Shown: positions 7,534 to 54,449 of the stretch, one piece after another
Position numbering within the stretch: position 1 is the stretch's first letter
Layout: each line of letters starts with the position of its first letter
Source of the DNA: Rhodothermales bacterium
GTDB lineage: Bacteria; Bacteroidota; Rhodothermia; Rhodothermales; JANQRZ01
Assembly: GCA_039944855.1 (NCBI GenBank)
Contig: JBDUXZ010000005.1
Location: 248,001-312,000, forward strand
Reading direction: 5' to 3'
Length of the DNA stretch: 64,000 nucleotides
Notes under the pieces: model-generated
Seen by the model: the letters and a program-made list of their open reading frames with translations, nothing else
Told to the model about the DNA's origin: nothing
Database searches by the model: none
Position numbers and translations under genes: made by a program

Positions 7534-8316
7534 TTACGCCTGGGCTTCCAGCCGGGCCACCTCGGTATCGGCGGCCTCTTTGCCCTGCACCTTGTCGACG
7601 ACGAGGCCGTTGAGCTTGATCTGGTACCAGCCGCCGCCGCCCTTCACGGCTTCGACGCCGGAGGAGCGCTGGGCCTCGGTGAGGGTCGCGTTCTCCTTCT
7701 GGAGCCGGGAGATCTCTTCGATCGCCTCTTCCTCGCCGTGGGCTTTGCTGACGACCCGGTCGTAGACCGTGATGTCGTACCAGCCGTTGCCGGTCTCGAC
7801 GGCGACGATCTCGGGCTGCGCCTGCGCTTCGATCTTCCGCTCGTGGCTCAGCGCGTCGAGGTTCTTCGAGAGCTGCTGGACGCTCTTGCGGAGGCCGGCG
7901 ATCTCTTCCTTCGTCGGGATGCCGAGGGTCTGGAGGGCCGTGGTGAGGGCCTCCTGCACGCGGTGCTCGAGGGAGCTGAACGTGTCGTCGGCCGCCTTGC
8001 GCACCTTGTCCACCTGCGTGTCCGCGGCCTTGCGGACGCGGTCGACCTGGGTGTCGATGGTCTTCATCACCTTGTCGGCCTGCTGGTCGACGTCCTTCTT
8101 GACCTGGCCGACCTGGCCCTCGACCTGCTTGCGCATCTGCTCGACTTCCTTGCGGGCTTCGCCGTCGTACTTCTTGCCTTTCTTGACGAGCTTCTTGAAG
8201 AGCTTGCTACCCTCCTCTTCCGCGACAGAAAGGGCGCCGATGCCGGCGAGGAATACGTTCTGCGTGGCTTCCTGCATGTCCTTCGGAAGCGAGTTCTTGT
8301 TCTTCTTCTTAGCCAT
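7534..8316 (-). CDS. Phasin family protein with duplicated C-terminal GWY modules
   Basis: A 260-residue basic, coiled-coil protein. The N-terminus (residues 1-45) has the phasin-type segment DMQEATQNVFLAGIGAL. It is followed by a long heptad-rich region with repeated (V/T)DTQVDRVRKAAD and DTQVDKVRKAAD units at about 85-115, reminiscent of PhaF/PhaI-type granule proteins. The C-terminus carries two similar modules, GNGWYDITVYDRVVSKAHG and GGGGWYQIKLNGLVVDKVQG. Phasins coat polyhydroxyalkanoate granules. The gene is third in a minus-strand run with phaR and another phasin. The role of the C-terminal modules is unknown. Confidence 0.82.
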   Translation of the reverse strand: MAKKKNKNSLPKDMQEATQNVFLAGIGALSVAEEEGSKLFKKLVKKGKKYDGEARKEVEQMRKQVEGQVGQVKKDVDQQADKVMKTIDTQVDRVRKAADTQVDKVRKAADDTFSSLEHRVQEALTTALQTLGIPTKEEIAGLRKSVQQLSKNLDALSHERKIEAQAQPEIVAVETGNGWYDITVYDRVVSKAHGEEEAIEEISRLQKENATLTEAQRSSGVEAVKGGGGWYQIKLNGLVVDKVQGKEAADTEVARLEAQA

Positions 8317-9516: not shown

Positions 9517-10617
9517 TCAGCGCGCGATCGTCAGCCGCCGGGTCCAGTGCTGCCCGTCCACGGTCAACCGAGCGATGTAGACGCCCGGAGCGAGACCGCC
9601 CGTGTCCAGCGTCTCGGCGTAGCGGCCTGCCGGCTGCGCCCCGTCGACGACGCGTAGCACGTCACGGCCCAGCACGTCGTACACGACGAGCGCGACGGCC
9701 CCGGCCTGCGGTACGTCATACGTCAGCGTGACCGCATCGCGCGCGGGGTTCGGAAACGCTGGCGCAAGCGCCGCGACGAGTGGCTCGCTGCCTACCTCTC
9801 CCGCAGTGGACACGGATCCGAGCCGGGCGATATCCGCTGTCGGCGGCTCCTCAACCATCTCGTCACCTTCACAGACCGAGGCCGCGACGGGCTGGTTCGA
9901 ACGGAGTTCGTAACACACATCGGTCGTCGTGATGCCGTTCGTTGTGATCGTCGTCGTGACCTTGACGCGCAGGGCTGGAACGCCGGCTTCGATGCCGGGG
10001 ACGAGGAGCGTCCCCCAGCCGTCCACCTCGGCCGTCTCGCTCACGTCGGACTCGATCTCGAACCCGTCGAAGTTGATGACTTGGGTGAAATCACTACTCC
10101 ACATGCTACCGAACGCCGTGGGGAAGGTGGCGTCGAGCTGCCCGTCCGGCGTGTTCAGAATCGCCAGCGCGATGTTCATCCCGCCCGATTCCCCGAGGAA
10201 GAACGAGCCCAACTCGACGGAGGCTTCCTCCGTAACGAGGTGGTAGAAATAGATCGTCCCCTCCGCCGTCACTCCGCCCTCATCGACCATGAACGGGAAC
10301 GTAGCCGTGAGCGAGGCCTGGTTGAGGGGTTCGGCCGCCGCTGCCGGCCCGGTCGCTCCCGCCTCCACCGTGATCTCGCCGTCGATCTGGTCCTCGAACG
10401 TAACACCGGTGAAATCGTAGGTCTGGTTGGGACCGACTTGCGCGATGAGCGTCTCCAGCGCAACGGTGTTGCTGCCGTCTACGTTCGACGTAGAGAGACT
10501 CACGTACGGGTTCGTCCCGATTCGGAGAGGGAAATCTGATTCATCGAGGGTGATTTGGGCTTCCGCCTGGAACGGCAGGACGAGCAAGGCGAAGAGGTAA
10601 ACGTAGCGCAGTCGCAT
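9517..10617 (-). CDS. Secreted protein with type IX secretion C-terminal sorting domain
   Basis: A 366-residue exported protein. A Sec signal peptide is visible (MRLRYVYLFALLVLPFQAEA, cleavage after AEA). The middle is a beta-rich region without recognised domain and with one pair of Cys residues (VCYEL and VCEG). The last 80 residues form a type A T9SS sorting domain: PAFPNPARDAVTLTYDV, VVYDVLGRDV, GLAPGVYIARL and a basic end. T9SS cargo is moved across the outer membrane and anchored or released after cleavage of this domain. A terminator follows immediately downstream. Function is otherwise unknown. Confidence 0.85.
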   Translation of the reverse strand: MRLRYVYLFALLVLPFQAEAQITLDESDFPLRIGTNPYVSLSTSNVDGSNTVALETLIAQVGPNQTYDFTGVTFEDQIDGEITVEAGATGPAAAAEPLNQASLTATFPFMVDEGGVTAEGTIYFYHLVTEEASVELGSFFLGESGGMNIALAILNTPDGQLDATFPTAFGSMWSSDFTQVINFDGFEIESDVSETAEVDGWGTLLVPGIEAGVPALRVKVTTTITTNGITTTDVCYELRSNQPVAASVCEGDEMVEEPPTADIARLGSVSTAGEVGSEPLVAALAPAFPNPARDAVTLTYDVPQAGAVALVVYDVLGRDVLRVVDGAQPAGRYAETLDTGGLAPGVYIARLTVDGQHWTRRLTIAR

Positions 10618-22147: not shown

Positions 22148-22307
22148 GGGTGGTGGTCCGTTGTCAGTGGTCGGTAGTCCGCTGTCACGGGAGTAGGGGC
22201 GTGGAGGGAAAGAGCGGGCTTCTCTTCTAGCTCCCACCGCGGCCTCCGGGGGCGCGATCCCGACGGACCACGGACCTCGATTCCGGCTTCGGCGCTGAAG
22301 CCAGCGC
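22148..22307. repeat. Intergenic gap with inverted ACCACGGAC-type repeats
   Basis: This 160-base gap has GTGGTCCGTTGTCAGTGG near its left edge and GACGGACCACGGACC near 22259-22274, in opposite orientation. They are related to the repeat array at 664-936. No gene or clear terminator is seen. Confidence 0.4.
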
Positions 22308-23363
22308 TCATCGTGCTCCCGGATTCGGTTTGGCCGGTCGGTGGAAGCGGTAGCTGCGGAACGTCGTCACGAACTCCTGCACGAGCACCTTCAGCACGGC
22401 GGCGGCGGGGACGGCGAGGAGCAGCCCGAGCAGGCCGAACGCATCGCCCGCCGCCAGGAGGACGAGGAGGATCACGAGCGGGTGCAACTCTACGTTCCGC
22501 GACAACAGGAGCGGCTGCGAGCCGAAATTGTCGATGAGTTGGATCACGAAAAAGGCGACGACGATGGGGAGCACCTGATCGAGCCCGCCCGTCGTCACGG
22601 CCGAGACCGCGACGGCGATGACGCCGCCGATGAAGGGGCCGAGGAATGGGATGAGGTTCGCCACGCCTGCCGCCGCGCCGACGAGGAAGTAGTACTCGAC
22701 GCCGATGAGCCACAGCGCGAACGTGGCGAGGAGGCCGACGATAAACGCGGCGAGGAGTTGGCCGCGGAGGTAGCCGCCGAGTTGGGCGTCGGCTTTGCGC
22801 AGCGCGTTGAGGGTGAACTCGAAGTAGCGGTTCGGGACCGCGCCGATGAACGCCCGCCGGAAGCGGCGCCCGTCTTTGAGCAGGAAGAACGCGATCACGG
22901 GGACGATCACGAACTGCGTCGCAAGGCCGAGCACGCCCGGCACGAACCCCACGACGTCGTCCAGGTGCTCGGTCGTGAACACCGCCACGCGCTCTCGCAG
23001 GTCGGGCCGGGGGACGCCGAGCGGGGCGAGCCGGTCGCCGAGCCACCGCTCGATGTCGCCGAGCACCTCGGACGCGACTTCGAGGTCGATCCCCTCTTGC
23101 AGCCCAGCGACCTGCGCCGCCAGCGACGGGAACAGGAGCGCGAGCGGCACGCCGATTAGCACGAGCAGCCCGCCGAAGACGGTGACCGACGCCCAGAGCC
23201 GGCTCATCCCGCGCGCTTCGAGCCGTACGGCGAGCGGGTCGAGGAGGTACGCCAGCAGCCCGCCGAGCACCACGAGCTGCACGACGCCGCGGACTGGCCA
23301 CAGCAACGCAACGGCAGCCACCGCCGCCGCGGCCAGCAAGAGAGCCTTACCCCATCGCGGCAT
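22308..23363 (-). CDS. AI-2E family transporter
   Basis: A 351-residue integral membrane protein of the AI-2E/UPF0118 family. Hydrophobic helices are at about residues 7-45 and 58-85; after a soluble loop (90-145) come five or more helices, at 148-330. The family signature near the middle is seen in GVANLIPFLGPFIGGV and PLLLSRNVELHP. Members export or exchange small solutes (autoinducer-2, or Na+/H+), and the substrate here is unknown. It is the last gene of a six-gene minus-strand operon and overlaps the upstream cNMP-binding gene by 17 bases. Confidence 0.88.
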   Translation of the reverse strand: MPRWGKALLLAAAAVAAVALLWPVRGVVQLVVLGGLLAYLLDPLAVRLEARGMSRLWASVTVFGGLLVLIGVPLALLFPSLAAQVAGLQEGIDLEVASEVLGDIERWLGDRLAPLGVPRPDLRERVAVFTTEHLDDVVGFVPGVLGLATQFVIVPVIAFFLLKDGRRFRRAFIGAVPNRYFEFTLNALRKADAQLGGYLRGQLLAAFIVGLLATFALWLIGVEYYFLVGAAAGVANLIPFLGPFIGGVIAVAVSAVTTGGLDQVLPIVVAFFVIQLIDNFGSQPLLLSRNVELHPLVILLVLLAAGDAFGLLGLLLAVPAAAVLKVLVQEFVTTFRSYRFHRPAKPNPGAR

Positions 23364-34929: not shown

Positions 34930-35051
34930 GCCGGCGGGTCGGTTTAATGCTCCGTGTCAATCCGACGATGCCGAAGGAGCCCTCGGCCGGGATACACAGC
35001 ATGCACGCCCGCGCCGACGGCATCACTGGCTTGCAGGATAGCGGATAACCC

Positions 35052-36959
35052 ATGAGCGGGATTGCGGGCCTTTTCCAACCCAACGGCCCGGCCGTCGCGG
35101 AGAGCGACCTACGGCGCATGACGGAAGCGTTGGCCCACCGAGGCGGCCACGCTGCATGTTGGTCACACGCCGCGGTCGGGCTCGGGCTCCAGTCGAGGAC
35201 CGCGGCGGCGGGGCCCATCACCTCCGGCCCGCTTGCCCTTGTCGCAGACGCCCGAATCGACAACCGGGTGGAGCTGATCGCAGCACTGTCGCTCCCCGGC
35301 CCGGCGTCGGAGGTCACCGATGAGGCCCTGATCCTCGCGGCCTACGAGCGATGGGGCGACGACTGTCCCGCGCACCTCATCGGAGCCTTCGCGTTCGCGC
35401 TCTGGGACGAGCGCCGCCGCACGCTCCTCTGCGCGCGCGACCACCTCGGCATTCGCCCGTTTTACTACCATCGCACGGACGCCCACTTCGCGTTCGGCTC
35501 GGAGATCAAAGCGCTCCTCGCACTCGGCGTGCCCCGGCAGGTGCGCGCGGCGAGCGTGGCCGACTTCCTCCTGCTGCAGCCTGAGGACAAGGAGGCGACG
35601 TTCTATGAAGGGGTCCTTCGGCTCCCACCGGCCCACACGCTCACGGTGACGCCGGACGGCCTGCAACGACGCCGCTACTGGTCGCTCGACCCGGACCGCA
35701 CCCTCGACCTCGGCTCCGACGAAGCCTACGCCGAAGCGTTCTACGAGCTGTTCGACGAAGCTGTGCGCTGCCGCCTGCGCGGCCCTGCCCCCGTCGGCTC
35801 CACGCTCAGCGGCGGGCTCGACTCGTCGTCCATCACCGTCCTCGCGCGGGATCGGCTGGCGGCGACGGGCCGCGACCCGCTCGACACGTTCTCGCTCGTC
35901 TTCGACGAGGTGACGGCGAGCGACGAGCGGCGCTACATCCAGTCCGTGCTGGACCAGGGCGGCCTCCGTCCGCACCTCGTCCACGGCGACCGCATCGGCG
36001 TGTTCGAGGAACTCGACCGGATGCTCGCGCACCTCGACGAGCCGTTCTTCGGGCCCAACCTGTTCCTCCACTGGGGCCTCTACCGATCCGCGCAGCAGCA
36101 GGGCGTCGGCGTGTTGCTGGATGGCGTGCTCGGCGACAGCGTCGTCTACCACGGCGACGTGTACCTCACCGAGTTGGTCGCGCGGGGCCGCTGGCTCGCC
36201 TTCGGACGAGAGCTGCGTCCCACGGCGAGGAAGTGGGGCCGCGGGTGGAAGGGGCTCCGGTACGTCGCGCGCCGGTACGTGTGGACCCCGCTCGTCTCCG
36301 AGCCGCTGCGCCGCACGTTCCCGTCCCTCCCCTGGCGTCCGCACCCGAACGACTTCGCCAGCACGCTCTTGAACCCGGAGTTCGCGCGGAACTTGCGAGA
36401 TTCAGAGCAGGCGGACTTCGTCGGGACCGACAGCCATCGGTCTCCTCGCTCGGTGCGCGCCGCACACTACGACGAGTTGACCTCCGGGCTGCTGCCGGCG
36501 GCGCTCGAAGTCATGGACCGCGCCGTAGCCGCATTCGGCATCGAAGCCCGCTACCCCTTCGCCGACCGCCGCCTCGTCGAGTTCTGCCTCGCGCTGCCTC
36601 CGACGCAGCGGTTCCGCCAGGGCCGGACACGCGATATTCTGCGCCGCGCGATGCACAGCCACTTGCCCGAGCCCATTCGGACGCGGAACACGAAGGGCAA
36701 CCTCAGCCACGTCCTCGCTCACAGCCTGCGCGATCCGTCGACCGGCCTCCGGGACTTCGTGGAGGACCGCCTCTCCATCGCCGAACCGTATCTCGACGTC
36801 GACGTCGTGCGGCGCGCGTATCGCGCGGTCGTCGACGACCGCGCGACCGGCCAGGCGCGCATGGCGCTGTGGCAGGCCGCCGTCCTCGTGCGGTGGCTGG
36901 AGCGAGAACGGGAAGCTCCGTCCCGCGCGAACCACCCTGACCTTCACCCCAGCACCTGA
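35052..36959 (+). CDS. Asparagine synthetase-like ATP-dependent ligase lacking Cys2 (lasso-cyclase-like)
   Basis: A 635-residue two-domain protein of the AsnB fold. The N-terminal glutaminase-like domain starts MSGIAGLFQ: the nucleophile Cys2 of true AsnB is Ser, so glutamine hydrolysis should not work. The rest of the domain (RRGG-like turn, GAFAFALWDE, RDHLGIRPFYY) is kept. The synthetase domain has an intact PP-loop, SGGLDSSS (253-260), and EARYPFADRRLVEFCLALP. Loss of Cys2 is typical of lasso peptide macrocyclases, which activate an Asp/Glu side chain. The next gene, an HPr-kinase-like protein, is another lasso-cluster hallmark, but no leader peptidase or clear precursor is seen. Confidence 0.82.
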   Translation: MSGIAGLFQPNGPAVAESDLRRMTEALAHRGGHAACWSHAAVGLGLQSRTAAAGPITSGPLALVADARIDNRVELIAALSLPGPASEVTDEALILAAYERWGDDCPAHLIGAFAFALWDERRRTLLCARDHLGIRPFYYHRTDAHFAFGSEIKALLALGVPRQVRAASVADFLLLQPEDKEATFYEGVLRLPPAHTLTVTPDGLQRRRYWSLDPDRTLDLGSDEAYAEAFYELFDEAVRCRLRGPAPVGSTLSGGLDSSSITVLARDRLAATGRDPLDTFSLVFDEVTASDERRYIQSVLDQGGLRPHLVHGDRIGVFEELDRMLAHLDEPFFGPNLFLHWGLYRSAQQQGVGVLLDGVLGDSVVYHGDVYLTELVARGRWLAFGRELRPTARKWGRGWKGLRYVARRYVWTPLVSEPLRRTFPSLPWRPHPNDFASTLLNPEFARNLRDSEQADFVGTDSHRSPRSVRAAHYDELTSGLLPAALEVMDRAVAAFGIEARYPFADRRLVEFCLALPPTQRFRQGRTRDILRRAMHSHLPEPIRTRNTKGNLSHVLAHSLRDPSTGLRDFVEDRLSIAEPYLDVDVVRRAYRAVVDDRATGQARMALWQAAVLVRWLEREREAPSRANHPDLHPST

Positions 36960-36990
36960 ATCCCGCAGCGCCTTGCCCCCCTCCGCTTCG

Positions 36991-37884
36991 ATGCACCGCT
37001 ACGTAGCCTACGGGCTCTCGATCGCGACGAGTATCCCGCTCCCCGAACTCCCCCCCGCAGACCCGAGTGTGAGCGGCGCGCCGGACATCCAGTTCTTTGG
37101 GGAGCCGCTGGGGACGCCGCCCGAGCCCGGCTCCGTGCCCGCGTCCACCGACGGACAGCAGGTCGTGATCGCGTGGGGCGACTACGTGACGCTGCGGATG
37201 CGCGGCGGGCACGAGTGCGCGTTCGACACCTCCGAAGCCCTCGCCGAAGCCATGCTCCGGCGGTACCTGCTCGGCCCCGGCCTCGGCATCCTCCTCCATC
37301 AACGCGGCCTGCTCGTCCTCCACGCCAGCGCCGTCAACCTCGGCGGCGAAGCCGTCCTGTTCATCGGCGAGAAGGGAGCCGGCAAGTCGACGACGGCCGC
37401 CGGCCTCCTCGCCCGGGGACACACGCTCCTCTCCGACGATGTCGTCGCCATCGACCTCACCGACCCGGCGCGCCCGCTCGTCCTCCCGGCGTTCGCCCAG
37501 ATCCGGTTGCGGCCGGACTCCGCCGCCGCCGTCGAGGTGCCCGACGACGAACTCGCGACGACCAATCTCACGCTCGACAAGCGGCTGTGGCAGGTGCACG
37601 ACCGGTTCCAGTCCGCCCCGGTGCCGCTGCGGGAGATCAACGTGCTCGACCGTGGCGTGCCAGGCGCCGTGGAGAGGCTCGCGAGCGATGCCGCCCTCGC
37701 CCAACTCCTCACGCACCTCTACGCGCCACGGTTTGCCGGCACGTCCGTGATGACGGGCGCCCACCTCCAGGCGTGCGCGACGCTCCTCGGCGCGGTCATC
37801 GTCCGGCGGCTCTCGCGCTCGGAATCGATGCGGGACCTCCCGATTTTGCTGGATACGGTCGAAGGCGACGGGCGGGCCGCCTAG
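36991..37884 (+). CDS. HPr kinase-like P-loop protein
   Basis: A 297-residue protein of the HprK-related family. LVLHASAV precedes the Walker A loop GEKGAGKST, followed by LLSDDVVAIDL, the order seen in HPr kinase-like proteins of RiPP (lasso) gene clusters and of PqqD-type neighbourhoods. The N-terminal 90 residues are not HPrK-like. The start ATG at 36991 is preferred to an upstream TTG. It follows the Cys2-less asparagine synthetase by 31 bases, so the two are one transcript. In paeninodin-type clusters such kinases phosphorylate the precursor C-terminus. Confidence 0.8.
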   Translation: MHRYVAYGLSIATSIPLPELPPADPSVSGAPDIQFFGEPLGTPPEPGSVPASTDGQQVVIAWGDYVTLRMRGGHECAFDTSEALAEAMLRRYLLGPGLGILLHQRGLLVLHASAVNLGGEAVLFIGEKGAGKSTTAAGLLARGHTLLSDDVVAIDLTDPARPLVLPAFAQIRLRPDSAAAVEVPDDELATTNLTLDKRLWQVHDRFQSAPVPLREINVLDRGVPGAVERLASDAALAQLLTHLYAPRFAGTSVMTGAHLQACATLLGAVIVRRLSRSESMRDLPILLDTVEGDGRAA

Positions 37885-53510: not shown

Positions 53511-54449
53511 TTATTTCAGCAGGACGAGGCTGCGCGTCTGCACAGCGGTTTCGCCCGTGACGCGGTAGAGGTACATCCCGCTCGGCAAGTCCTGCCCGTC
53601 GATCTCGAAGGTGTGCGGGGTCTGGGCCGCCAGCGTCCCCTCGTGCAGCACGCCAACCCGGCGCCCGAGCACGTCGAACACCTCGACGCGCACCGACTGC
53701 GCGCGCTCCACAGTCACGTCGAACCGCGACAGCGAGGTGAACGGGTTGGGGTACGCCCCGCCCAAAACGATGGCGTCCGGCAGGCCCGAGGCGTCCGACT
53801 CGTTCGCGACCGTCATCCCGGTACTGAACCCGATCTCGTCGAAGGCGAGGGCGAACTCGGGCCCGGCCGGGATCCCCCCGAAGGCGAACACCACGTTGAT
53901 CACGCGCGAGAAGTCGAAGCCGTCGTCGGACCCGGCGTTCACCGAGTTGTCGTCGGCGAACGACGCCAGCGGGATCTGCACGAGCTCGTACTCGCTCCCG
54001 AGCGAGAGCCGGTAGTTCGCCTGGTACTCGTCCTCCGTCGCCCCCTCGTACACCCCGTCGCCGTCGGCGTCCTCCTGGAGGTTGATCTCGAGCGTCAGCG
54101 GGAGGTTCGACGCCTGCACCGTCGTCGGGCGGACGTAGAGCGTGAGGTACTCCGAGGCGCTCGCGTCGACGCCGGCGGCGAGGACGACGGCGGCCCCGGC
54201 GAAGCCCCCGCCACCGCCGGGGTTGATCCCGAGCGCGAGCCCGGTGTTCTCGGCGCCGCCGAGCCCGTCGATGGGCCCGACGCCGGCGCCGATCTCGGGG
54301 GCGCCGCCGGAGAACGCCGAGACGTTGGCCACGTCCCCGTCGTCGAACGTATCGAAGACCACTTGGGCCGAGGCCGTGTGCGGGACGACAGCAGCGGCGG
54401 TCAGCAGCACGAGCGCGGTGAAGGAGAGGTGCCGTAGCGAGTGTTTCAT
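53511..54449 (-). CDS. T9SS-sorted CBM-like secreted protein, first gene of the glucan operon
   Basis: A 312-residue protein with a signal peptide (MKHSLRHLSFTALVLLTAAA..., cleavage after ASA). A beta-sandwich domain (about residues 29-215) opens with VVFDTFDDGDVANVSAFSGG and resembles the CBM-like modules of the 47132 lipoprotein. The C-terminal 85 residues are a T9SS sorting domain: LGGAYPNPFTSLSRFDVTVE, VFDVLGRRVG, LPSGMYLYRVTG and SLVLLK. It would be exported and fixed on the cell surface. It is the promoter-proximal gene of the minus-strand operon, 45-80 bases from the operator and promoter. Confidence 0.85.
   Translation of the reverse strand: MKHSLRHLSFTALVLLTAAAVVPHTASAQVVFDTFDDGDVANVSAFSGGAPEIGAGVGPIDGLGGAENTGLALGINPGGGGGFAGAAVVLAAGVDASASEYLTLYVRPTTVQASNLPLTLEINLQEDADGDGVYEGATEDEYQANYRLSLGSEYELVQIPLASFADDNSVNAGSDDGFDFSRVINVVFAFGGIPAGPEFALAFDEIGFSTGMTVANESDASGLPDAIVLGGAYPNPFTSLSRFDVTVERAQSVRVEVFDVLGRRVGVLHEGTLAAQTPHTFEIDGQDLPSGMYLYRVTGETAVQTRSLVLLK

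Follow-up and report, generated by a model that had tools for sequence, protein, structure and literature searches.

A lasso-type cyclase–kinase pair in a Rhodothermales genome and candidate precursors located behind genes for type IX secretion-tailed proteins

The 64,000-nucleotide stretch of DNA analyzed here (the window; C5:248001-312000) lies inside a 633-kb contig, JBDUXZ010000005.1, of a Rhodothermales bacterium with a 4.60-Mb genome (41 contigs, 97.9% complete). It carries adjacent genes for a lasso-type macrolactam cyclase and an HprK-like kinase. In the reading that we consider probable, both gene products, a lasso cyclase and a precursor kinase, are intact and act in trans, with substrates encoded elsewhere in the genome and with leader removal borrowed from the full lasso cluster that contig C30 carries (G, C and L numbers are our handles for genomes, contigs and loci).

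Genome mining usually seeks lasso precursors near the cyclase. The likely substrates of the window pair are instead encoded on another contig or ~280 kb from the pair, and what marks them is a gene for a protein with a type IX secretion system (T9SS) tail. If this is correct, such peptides are missed wherever the same layout occurs, and the location of the precursor becomes the first testable clue to the role of phosphorylated lasso peptides. The service of two lasso lineages by one leader peptidase and one RiPP recognition element (RRE; RiPP, ribosomally synthesized and post-translationally modified peptide) also becomes directly testable. The point of interest is the location of the substrates, not the missing cluster.

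Sequence features and phylogeny of the cyclase–kinase pair

The initial annotation had described the first gene as an asparagine synthetase homolog in which Ser replaces the glutaminase nucleophile and the PP-loop is intact, and both features are confirmed in an uninterrupted 635-amino-acid (aa) open reading frame (ORF). The protein begins with MSGIAG and has SGGLDSS at residues 253–259, where S253, G254, G255, D257 and S258 are invariant across 13 aligned lasso-type cyclases. Its Pfam matches are Asn_synthase (1.9e-59) and GATase_7 (4.9e-26), and the solved structures matched by its sequence are asparagine synthetases and one hydroxyamidotransferase. Against the NCBIfam lasso-cyclase model NF033535 it scores 647.7 bits and passes the curated cutoff of 525 bits, while its scores for asparagine synthase (TIGR01536, asn_synth_AEB; 257 bits, cutoff 267.1) and the XrtA/PEP-CTERM exopolysaccharide amidotransferase (TIGR03108, eps_aminotran_1; 223 bits, cutoff 816.9) are below threshold.

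A cyclase tree was built from 45 ORFs that scored >80 bits to either cyclase of the source genome, with duplicates removed and a few partial sequences included. The window cyclase forms a clade with one protein each from G021, G046 and G039 (support 100/98), joined next by a protein from G063 (97/96). The C30 cyclase groups with G001 (100/99) and with the cyclase of a complete cluster in G046 (94/96). Five outgroup rows, taken as AsnB-like or exopolysaccharide-like with no family search made on them, form a 100/100 clade of their own that excludes the window protein, and four of these begin with MCGI and hence carry Cys2. Forcing the window cyclase into the C30 group was rejected by an approximately unbiased (AU) test (p=4e-5), the groups for this and the following AU test having been chosen after the tree had been seen. 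By sequence, the lineage of the window cyclase is distinct from that of the complete C30 cluster, and the tree and this AU result led us to reject the idea that it arose by recent duplication from the C30 cyclase.

It is very improbable that the synthetase is an AsnB-like enzyme or an exopolysaccharide amidotransferase that has lost its glutaminase activity. The fold family is common to AsnB-like enzymes, and an AU test joining the window protein to the five AsnB-like rows was not rejected (p=0.064), which leaves some room for the AsnB or exopolysaccharide placement that the initial annotation had named as counting against a lasso link. The lasso-model score, the position of the protein among lasso-type cyclases and the neighboring kinase all argue against this alternative, so that the phylogeny proposed in that annotation supports the lasso grouping while separating it incompletely from AsnB.

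The kinase ORF begins 13 bases (TTG) or 31 bases (ATG) after the cyclase gene, and in an alignment of 13 kinases the ATG start agrees better with the relatives. The HprK-like assignment made initially is borne out by a match to Hpr_kinase_C (37.6 bits, cutoff 33.3, across 49 residues) and by retention of the His, GxxGxGKS and Asp-Asp residues reported for lasso kinases (PMC10368454, PMC9266682). Within the Walker A motif, G126, G131, K132, S133 and T134 are invariant among the 13 kinases and G129 is nearly so; H111 is regarded as the counterpart of BsfK H148 (PMC10368454). The protein scores below every NCBIfam cutoff (best, 43.4 of 200 bits), and the solved structures that it matches are HprK proteins. 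The G+C content at third codon positions (GC3) is 0.88 for the cyclase and 0.91 for the kinase, with neighboring and C30 genes spanning 0.83–0.97. The kinase tree, which is unrooted, matches the cyclase tree in outline. By sequence, both enzymes are intact and fit the families of lasso cyclases and lasso kinases; their activity is predicted.

There are no PqqD or Transglut_core3 matches in the window at E≤0.001, as the initial annotation had stated, and three precursor models have no match anywhere in it. Because the window is interior to its contig, the missing cluster genes are not a contig-edge effect. The pair therefore lacks the adjacent precursor, PqqD and transglutaminase of a complete lasso cluster. 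The genome-wide search for unlinked genes that had been proposed returned a single Transglut_core3 match, on C30, and two PqqD matches, on C30 and C29. The C30 locus is a complete lasso cluster with PqqD, transglutaminase, cyclase (716.8 bits to NF033535 for the full protein), two precursors and an HprK-like kinase, which makes the window pair a second set in the same genome that lacks these leader-processing (B) genes, or a satellite. By the available tests, bar the AU value of 0.064, the window enzymes are lasso enzymes; their gene arrangement is not that of a lasso cluster. On C29 (L005:7972-9302), PqqD adjoins an HprK-related kinase, and no cyclase or Transglut_core3 match was found there.

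Similar satellites occur in related genomes. The window synthetase has matches in 79 of the 148 genomes searched, the source genome included, and 20 regions around the best matches were scanned by tblastn with the C30 proteins. Both PqqD and transglutaminase were found in 10 regions, one of them in seven and neither in three, namely L058 (G046), L059 (G039) and L049 (G022, where the cyclase starts at the contig end). In G046 and G039, a cyclase–kinase pair stands in a 19-kb stretch with no PqqD or transglutaminase match, and the sole Transglut_core3 match is ~773 kb from the pair in G046 and on another contig in G039. The sole match is also far from the cyclase in G018 (C1:1840490 versus C1:1099450), G044 (C2:167093 versus C2:328146) and G009 (C1:3726713 versus C1:2005177); in G018 and G044 the transglutaminase belongs to a PqqD-bearing module of its own and so may not serve the cyclase. 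Transglut_core3 was not found in three of the 15 relatives searched (G097, G103 and the 83%-complete G021). A different arrangement is seen in G021 (L044:5234-13606), where two cyclases of different clades, an ATP-binding cassette transporter, a kinase, PqqD and a precursor of the type described below (type 2) lie within ~8 kb, together with a second precursor-like ORF at 7663-7866 (-).

Candidate precursors and their T9SS-tailed neighbors

Two unlinked candidate precursors were found in the source genome, at C5:563055-563246 and C20:420045-420224. Five places in the source genome match a model of 22 precursors found near cyclases (A2), namely C1:55275 (2.6e-7), C5:563070 (9.6e-4), C20:420066 (1.8e-3) and both C30 precursors. 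A model built only from the precursors next to the G046, G039 and G021 cyclases (A7) ranks C5 first (1.3e-5) and C20 second (5.0e-5), followed by the C30 pair (0.0105 and 0.0157) and a chance-level match (0.46). A third model of the type-2 precursors (A4) includes the C5 and C20 peptides, so for these only A7 is an independent test. In each of G046, G039 and G021, the precursor adjoins a cyclase of the window clade; in G039 it starts with GTG and has a further in-frame start upstream. These results favor the first of two options in the initial annotation, a precursor encoded elsewhere, over a distinct ligase–kinase system, which is less supported by the sequences.

The C5 peptide shares 61% identity with the C20 peptide and 30–35% with the G046 and G039 peptides. 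On reading by eye, each of the five type-2 peptides has Thr at -2, Gly1 and Asp8/9, with ring regions GPGLGTED (C5), GPGMTGTQD (C20), GPDSGNLD (G046), GGGPVPLD (G039) and GTAQGSAD (G021). By the same reading, the C5 and C20 peptides follow the lasso-precursor pattern of a [YF]xxPxL leader, Thr(-2), Gly1 and an acid at 7–9. A terminal Ser, the residue targeted by PadeK-type (paeninodin-type) kinases (PMC9266682), is present in 5/5 type-2 precursors versus 2/20 other A2 precursors (Fisher p=4e-4; endings read by eye). Values of pS/pN, indicative only for such very short ORFs, are 0.30/0.06 (G037/G051), 0.25/0.08 (G018/G057) and 0.61/0.19 (C5/C20).

The leader spacing, [YF]xxPxLxxxG followed by five residues and T, is identical in the C30, C5 and C20 precursors, which makes sharing of the C30 leader-processing enzymes plausible. 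The equal spacing would also fit a redundant pathway, in which the window pair would serve the C30-type precursors (a pair on C30 and an unlinked one on C1) as an additional cyclase and kinase, as would the fact that one C30-type precursor, C1:55275, is itself unlinked. We regard this as quite unlikely because the window cyclase falls outside the C30 lineage, the C30-type cores start with D or Y and have Asp9 (by eye), as opposed to Gly1 and Asp8/9 in type 2, and the A7 model favors the C5 and C20 precursors over those of C30.

The unlinked C30-type precursor (MKTYEAPRLIPYGTVAHVTA...) is at C1 ~55.3 kb (L073:9276-9491), far from the C30 enzymes, and trails a gene for a 607-aa secreted-looking protein with no Pfam match at E≤0.01. 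Across the C30 lineage (L004:12923-13404, L055:10775-10966, L063:10375-10602, L118:12543-13225), the residue after Thr-x is D, T, A or Y (the last in the C1 copy) rather than Gly, with Asp at 9, by eye. These precursors are possibly a lasso peptide group with an unusual first residue.

The type-2 precursors are associated with T9SS genes. On C5, the precursor follows at a distance of 95 bases a gene whose 861-aa product has FG-GAP repeats and Por_Secre_tail; on C20, the distance is 88 bases and the preceding gene encodes a NIDO protein of 671 aa, again with Por_Secre_tail. A frameshifted third copy at C1 ~81.5 kb (L110:8990-9140) is likewise directly behind a T9SS-tailed gene. In G046, the precursor trails the gene of a T9SS-tailed protein (26.1 bits, Pfam cutoff 27) and is convergent to the cyclase–kinase pair; in G021 a T9SS-tailed gene is succeeded by the cyclase and then the precursor, and in G039 the precursor, placed between the cyclase and kinase genes, does not have a T9SS gene immediately before it. 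T9SS-tail matches number 126 in the source genome and 15 to 122 in 14 relatives, and our T9SS-tail model was built from 27 tails of the source genome. A tail-bearing ORF is just upstream on the same strand at 13/30 loci returned by A4 and, when three loci with A4 members are removed, at 11/27 (binomial p=3e-9 with the chance level set at 4%, a rounded figure higher than the estimate of 0.5–3%, which itself assumed one gene per 1.1 kb). Several of these loci are orthologs in one genus and some lie inside unrelated genes, so this p value overstates their independence. The location of the precursors was outside what the window sequence could have shown at the time of the initial annotation.

By eye, no ring acid is seen in most of the other T9SS-linked A4 peptides, which suggests that the T9SS-linked peptide family is wider than lasso peptides. 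The cores in the f3/g4 genomes read GGFVFS, GVFSFS, GVFVFS and GSFDFS, and G097 and G020 each have a T9SS-linked precursor-like ORF with no window-cyclase match in the genome. We found nothing in the open-access papers searched that joins lasso peptides to type IX secretion, which does not show that such work is unpublished; titles and abstract openings of open-access papers on lasso peptides and rhodotherms contain nothing on a T9SS-linked layout.

Alternatively, the C5 and C20 peptides could be linear products, phosphorylated by an HprK-like kinase together with the PqqD of C29 in the manner of linear polyphosphorylated peptides (LPPs), and the window cyclase would serve something else. This reading is unlikely. 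In its favor are the cyclase-less PqqD–HprK pair at C29, a cyclase-less LPP-like module in G018 (L152:6208-9078) that combines a C29-type kinase with PqqD, transglutaminase and NTP_transf_5, the related T9SS-linked f3/g4 peptides, whose cores are too short for a ring, and the LPP systems described in Bacillota (PMC13381572). However, Gly1 and Asp8/9 are retained in the C5 and C20 cores, and the same type of peptide adjoins a window-clade cyclase in G046, G039 and G021.

Several other loci combine T9SS-tailed genes with similar ORFs. In G020 (L151:103-4047, C61:6563-6886), Transglut_core3 is close to a T9SS-tailed gene, a kinase-like ORF and an ORF that resembles a precursor (core AEYGGLD...), and in G030 (L155:7065-12699) a similar ORF is accompanied by Transglut_core3, a T9SS-tailed gene, an HprK-like kinase and NTP_transf_5. 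Both are possible cyclase-less T9SS-coupled clusters. Genes for a Ser/Thr kinase with tetratricopeptide repeats and an extracytoplasmic function sigma factor (both Pfam-tested) stand upstream of the T9SS gene on C5 (L074:10090-13642); sigma-factor-like and kinase-like genes are also beside the T9SS gene and peptide ORF in G097 (L114).

Under the preferred reading of an intact pair acting in trans, both precursors would be co-produced with the T9SS-tailed secreted protein of the gene just upstream, and the window kinase would phosphorylate the C-terminal Ser. The leader would then be bound by the C30 PqqD, or by that of C29, and the C30 transglutaminase would cut after the -1 residue. The window cyclase would activate Asp8 (C5) or Asp9 (C20) and link it to Gly1 to form the lasso ring. 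In what is the least certain step, the product may act at or near the cell surface together with the T9SS cargo.

Several points weigh against this scheme, in addition to the AU value of 0.064. The enzymatic steps are predicted from sequence, and acceptance of the C5 and C20 leaders by the C30 B1 and B2 proteins is an assumption; lasso RREs outside Bacillota do retain relaxed specificity (PMC13381572). The C5 precursor has a GC3 of only 0.67. Within the window clade, the NF033535 scores of G046 (292), G039 (316), both partial sequences, and G021 (517.9) are below 525. The window kinase and those of G046 and G039 form an unrooted split only (93/92), and the nearby G021 kinase is of another lineage. 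Finally, of the three precursor copies one is frameshifted, and the system may therefore be eroding.

The extreme form of this last idea is that the pair is a decaying remnant of a lasso cluster that has lost its precursor and B genes and is no longer productive. The absence of precursor or B-gene matches near the pair and the broken copy elsewhere would fit, as would the failure to see an ortholog in two other family members searched (the best match in G001 groups with C30, and G002 has no match). We consider a remnant improbable because both ORFs are intact with coding-like GC3 and conserved residues, the B-less arrangement recurs in G046 and G039, and two matching precursors are intact.

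More tentatively, the pair acting in trans might be one part of an order-wide RiPP precursor family that sits behind T9SS surface-protein genes, has a lasso-type leader and is matured in trans by dispersed enzymes. The cyclase–kinase satellite would yield phosphorylated lassos with Gly1-Asp8/9 cores, and a cyclase-less PqqD/kinase/nucleotidyltransferase/peptidase module would yield short linear phosphopeptides (e.g. GGFVFS). The peptide could be a dedicated partner, tag or signal of the surface protein with which it is co-produced.

Feature map of the window

Table 1. Features of the cyclase–kinase locus, in window coordinates
Feature	Position	Strand	Basis or remark
Predicted lasso-type macrolactam cyclase (C protein), 635 aa, Ser for Cys2	35052..36959	+	NF033535 647.7 vs 525; clade 100/98
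Ser2 codon where glutaminase Cys2 is expected	35055..35057	+	Sequence reading
PP-loop SGGLDS, ATP pyrophosphatase motif, residues 253-258	35808..35825	+	Alignment of 13 cyclases
Predicted HprK-like precursor kinase, 297 aa (alternative TTG 36973, 303 aa)	36991..37884	+	Pfam, 13-sequence alignment, tree
Kinase His H111 (numbered from ATG 36991)	37321..37323	+	Invariant in 13 kinases
Walker A GEKGAGKST	37366..37392	+	13-kinase alignment
Asp-Asp pair D149-D150	37435..37440	+	Invariant in 13 kinases
33-codon ORF, considered as precursor	34947..35048	+	Stops 3 bases short of cyclase; rejected

The genes flanking the pair presumably encode a KAS III-like protein and a sugar transporter. The 33-codon ORF was rejected as a local precursor because the leader motif is absent by eye and none of the three precursor models matches it. 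Two further ORFs picked up in the window by a regular-expression scan (32 aa, ~2248-2346 +; 118 aa, ~22307-22665 -) look unrelated by eye. The window also contains two Por_Secre_tail matches, at 9526-9756 (-) and 53526-53753 (-), with no precursor-model match nearby.

Comparison with known systems

A close parallel is the paeninodin type (PadeA/K/C/B1/B2; ThcoK, SyanK), which likewise combines a lasso cyclase with an HprK-like kinase, conserves the kinase residues and has a terminal Ser on the precursor (PMC9266682), a residue that is also terminal on the presumed precursors here. In the Rhodothermales genome, the candidate precursors, PqqD and leader peptidase are away from the cyclase and the precursors are behind T9SS-tailed genes. 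Paeninodins have been called restricted to Bacillota (PMC13381572). From the Gram-negative Bradymonas sediminis, the BsfA/BsfK system also has an HprK-like lasso kinase with the H/GxxGxGKS/DD residues and a YxxPxL leader, but BsfK phosphorylates core residue Ser3, Ile occupies leader position -2 and the genes are clustered (PMC10368454).

The pseudomycoidin (psm) pathway is a lasso pathway with a kinase and a nucleotidyltransferase, and according to a title cited in PMC9266682 it was made without a leader or leader peptidase, so a B-less pair is conceivable. Unlike the present system, psm is a single cluster; inspection found no nucleotidyltransferase next to the window pair, while a nucleoside triphosphate (NTP) transferase is present in the G046 satellite. 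LPPs, described in Bacillota in 2026, use an RRE, an HprK-like kinase and an NTP transferase on peptides with lasso-like YxxP leaders, and their systems often share a genome with lasso clusters (PMC13381572). The window pair differs from this cyclase-less set in having a cyclase and no RRE match. According to the same source, the LPP protease is signal-peptidase-like and there is no cyclase, whereas the comparable module of this order has a transglutaminase, with related peptides behind T9SS-tailed genes.

Completion of a RiPP pathway by distant genes has a precedent in the unclustered proteases of lanthipeptide systems (PMC8960859). There, a protease is unlinked, whereas in the arrangement proposed here the precursors, the RRE and the protease would all be unlinked from the cyclase.

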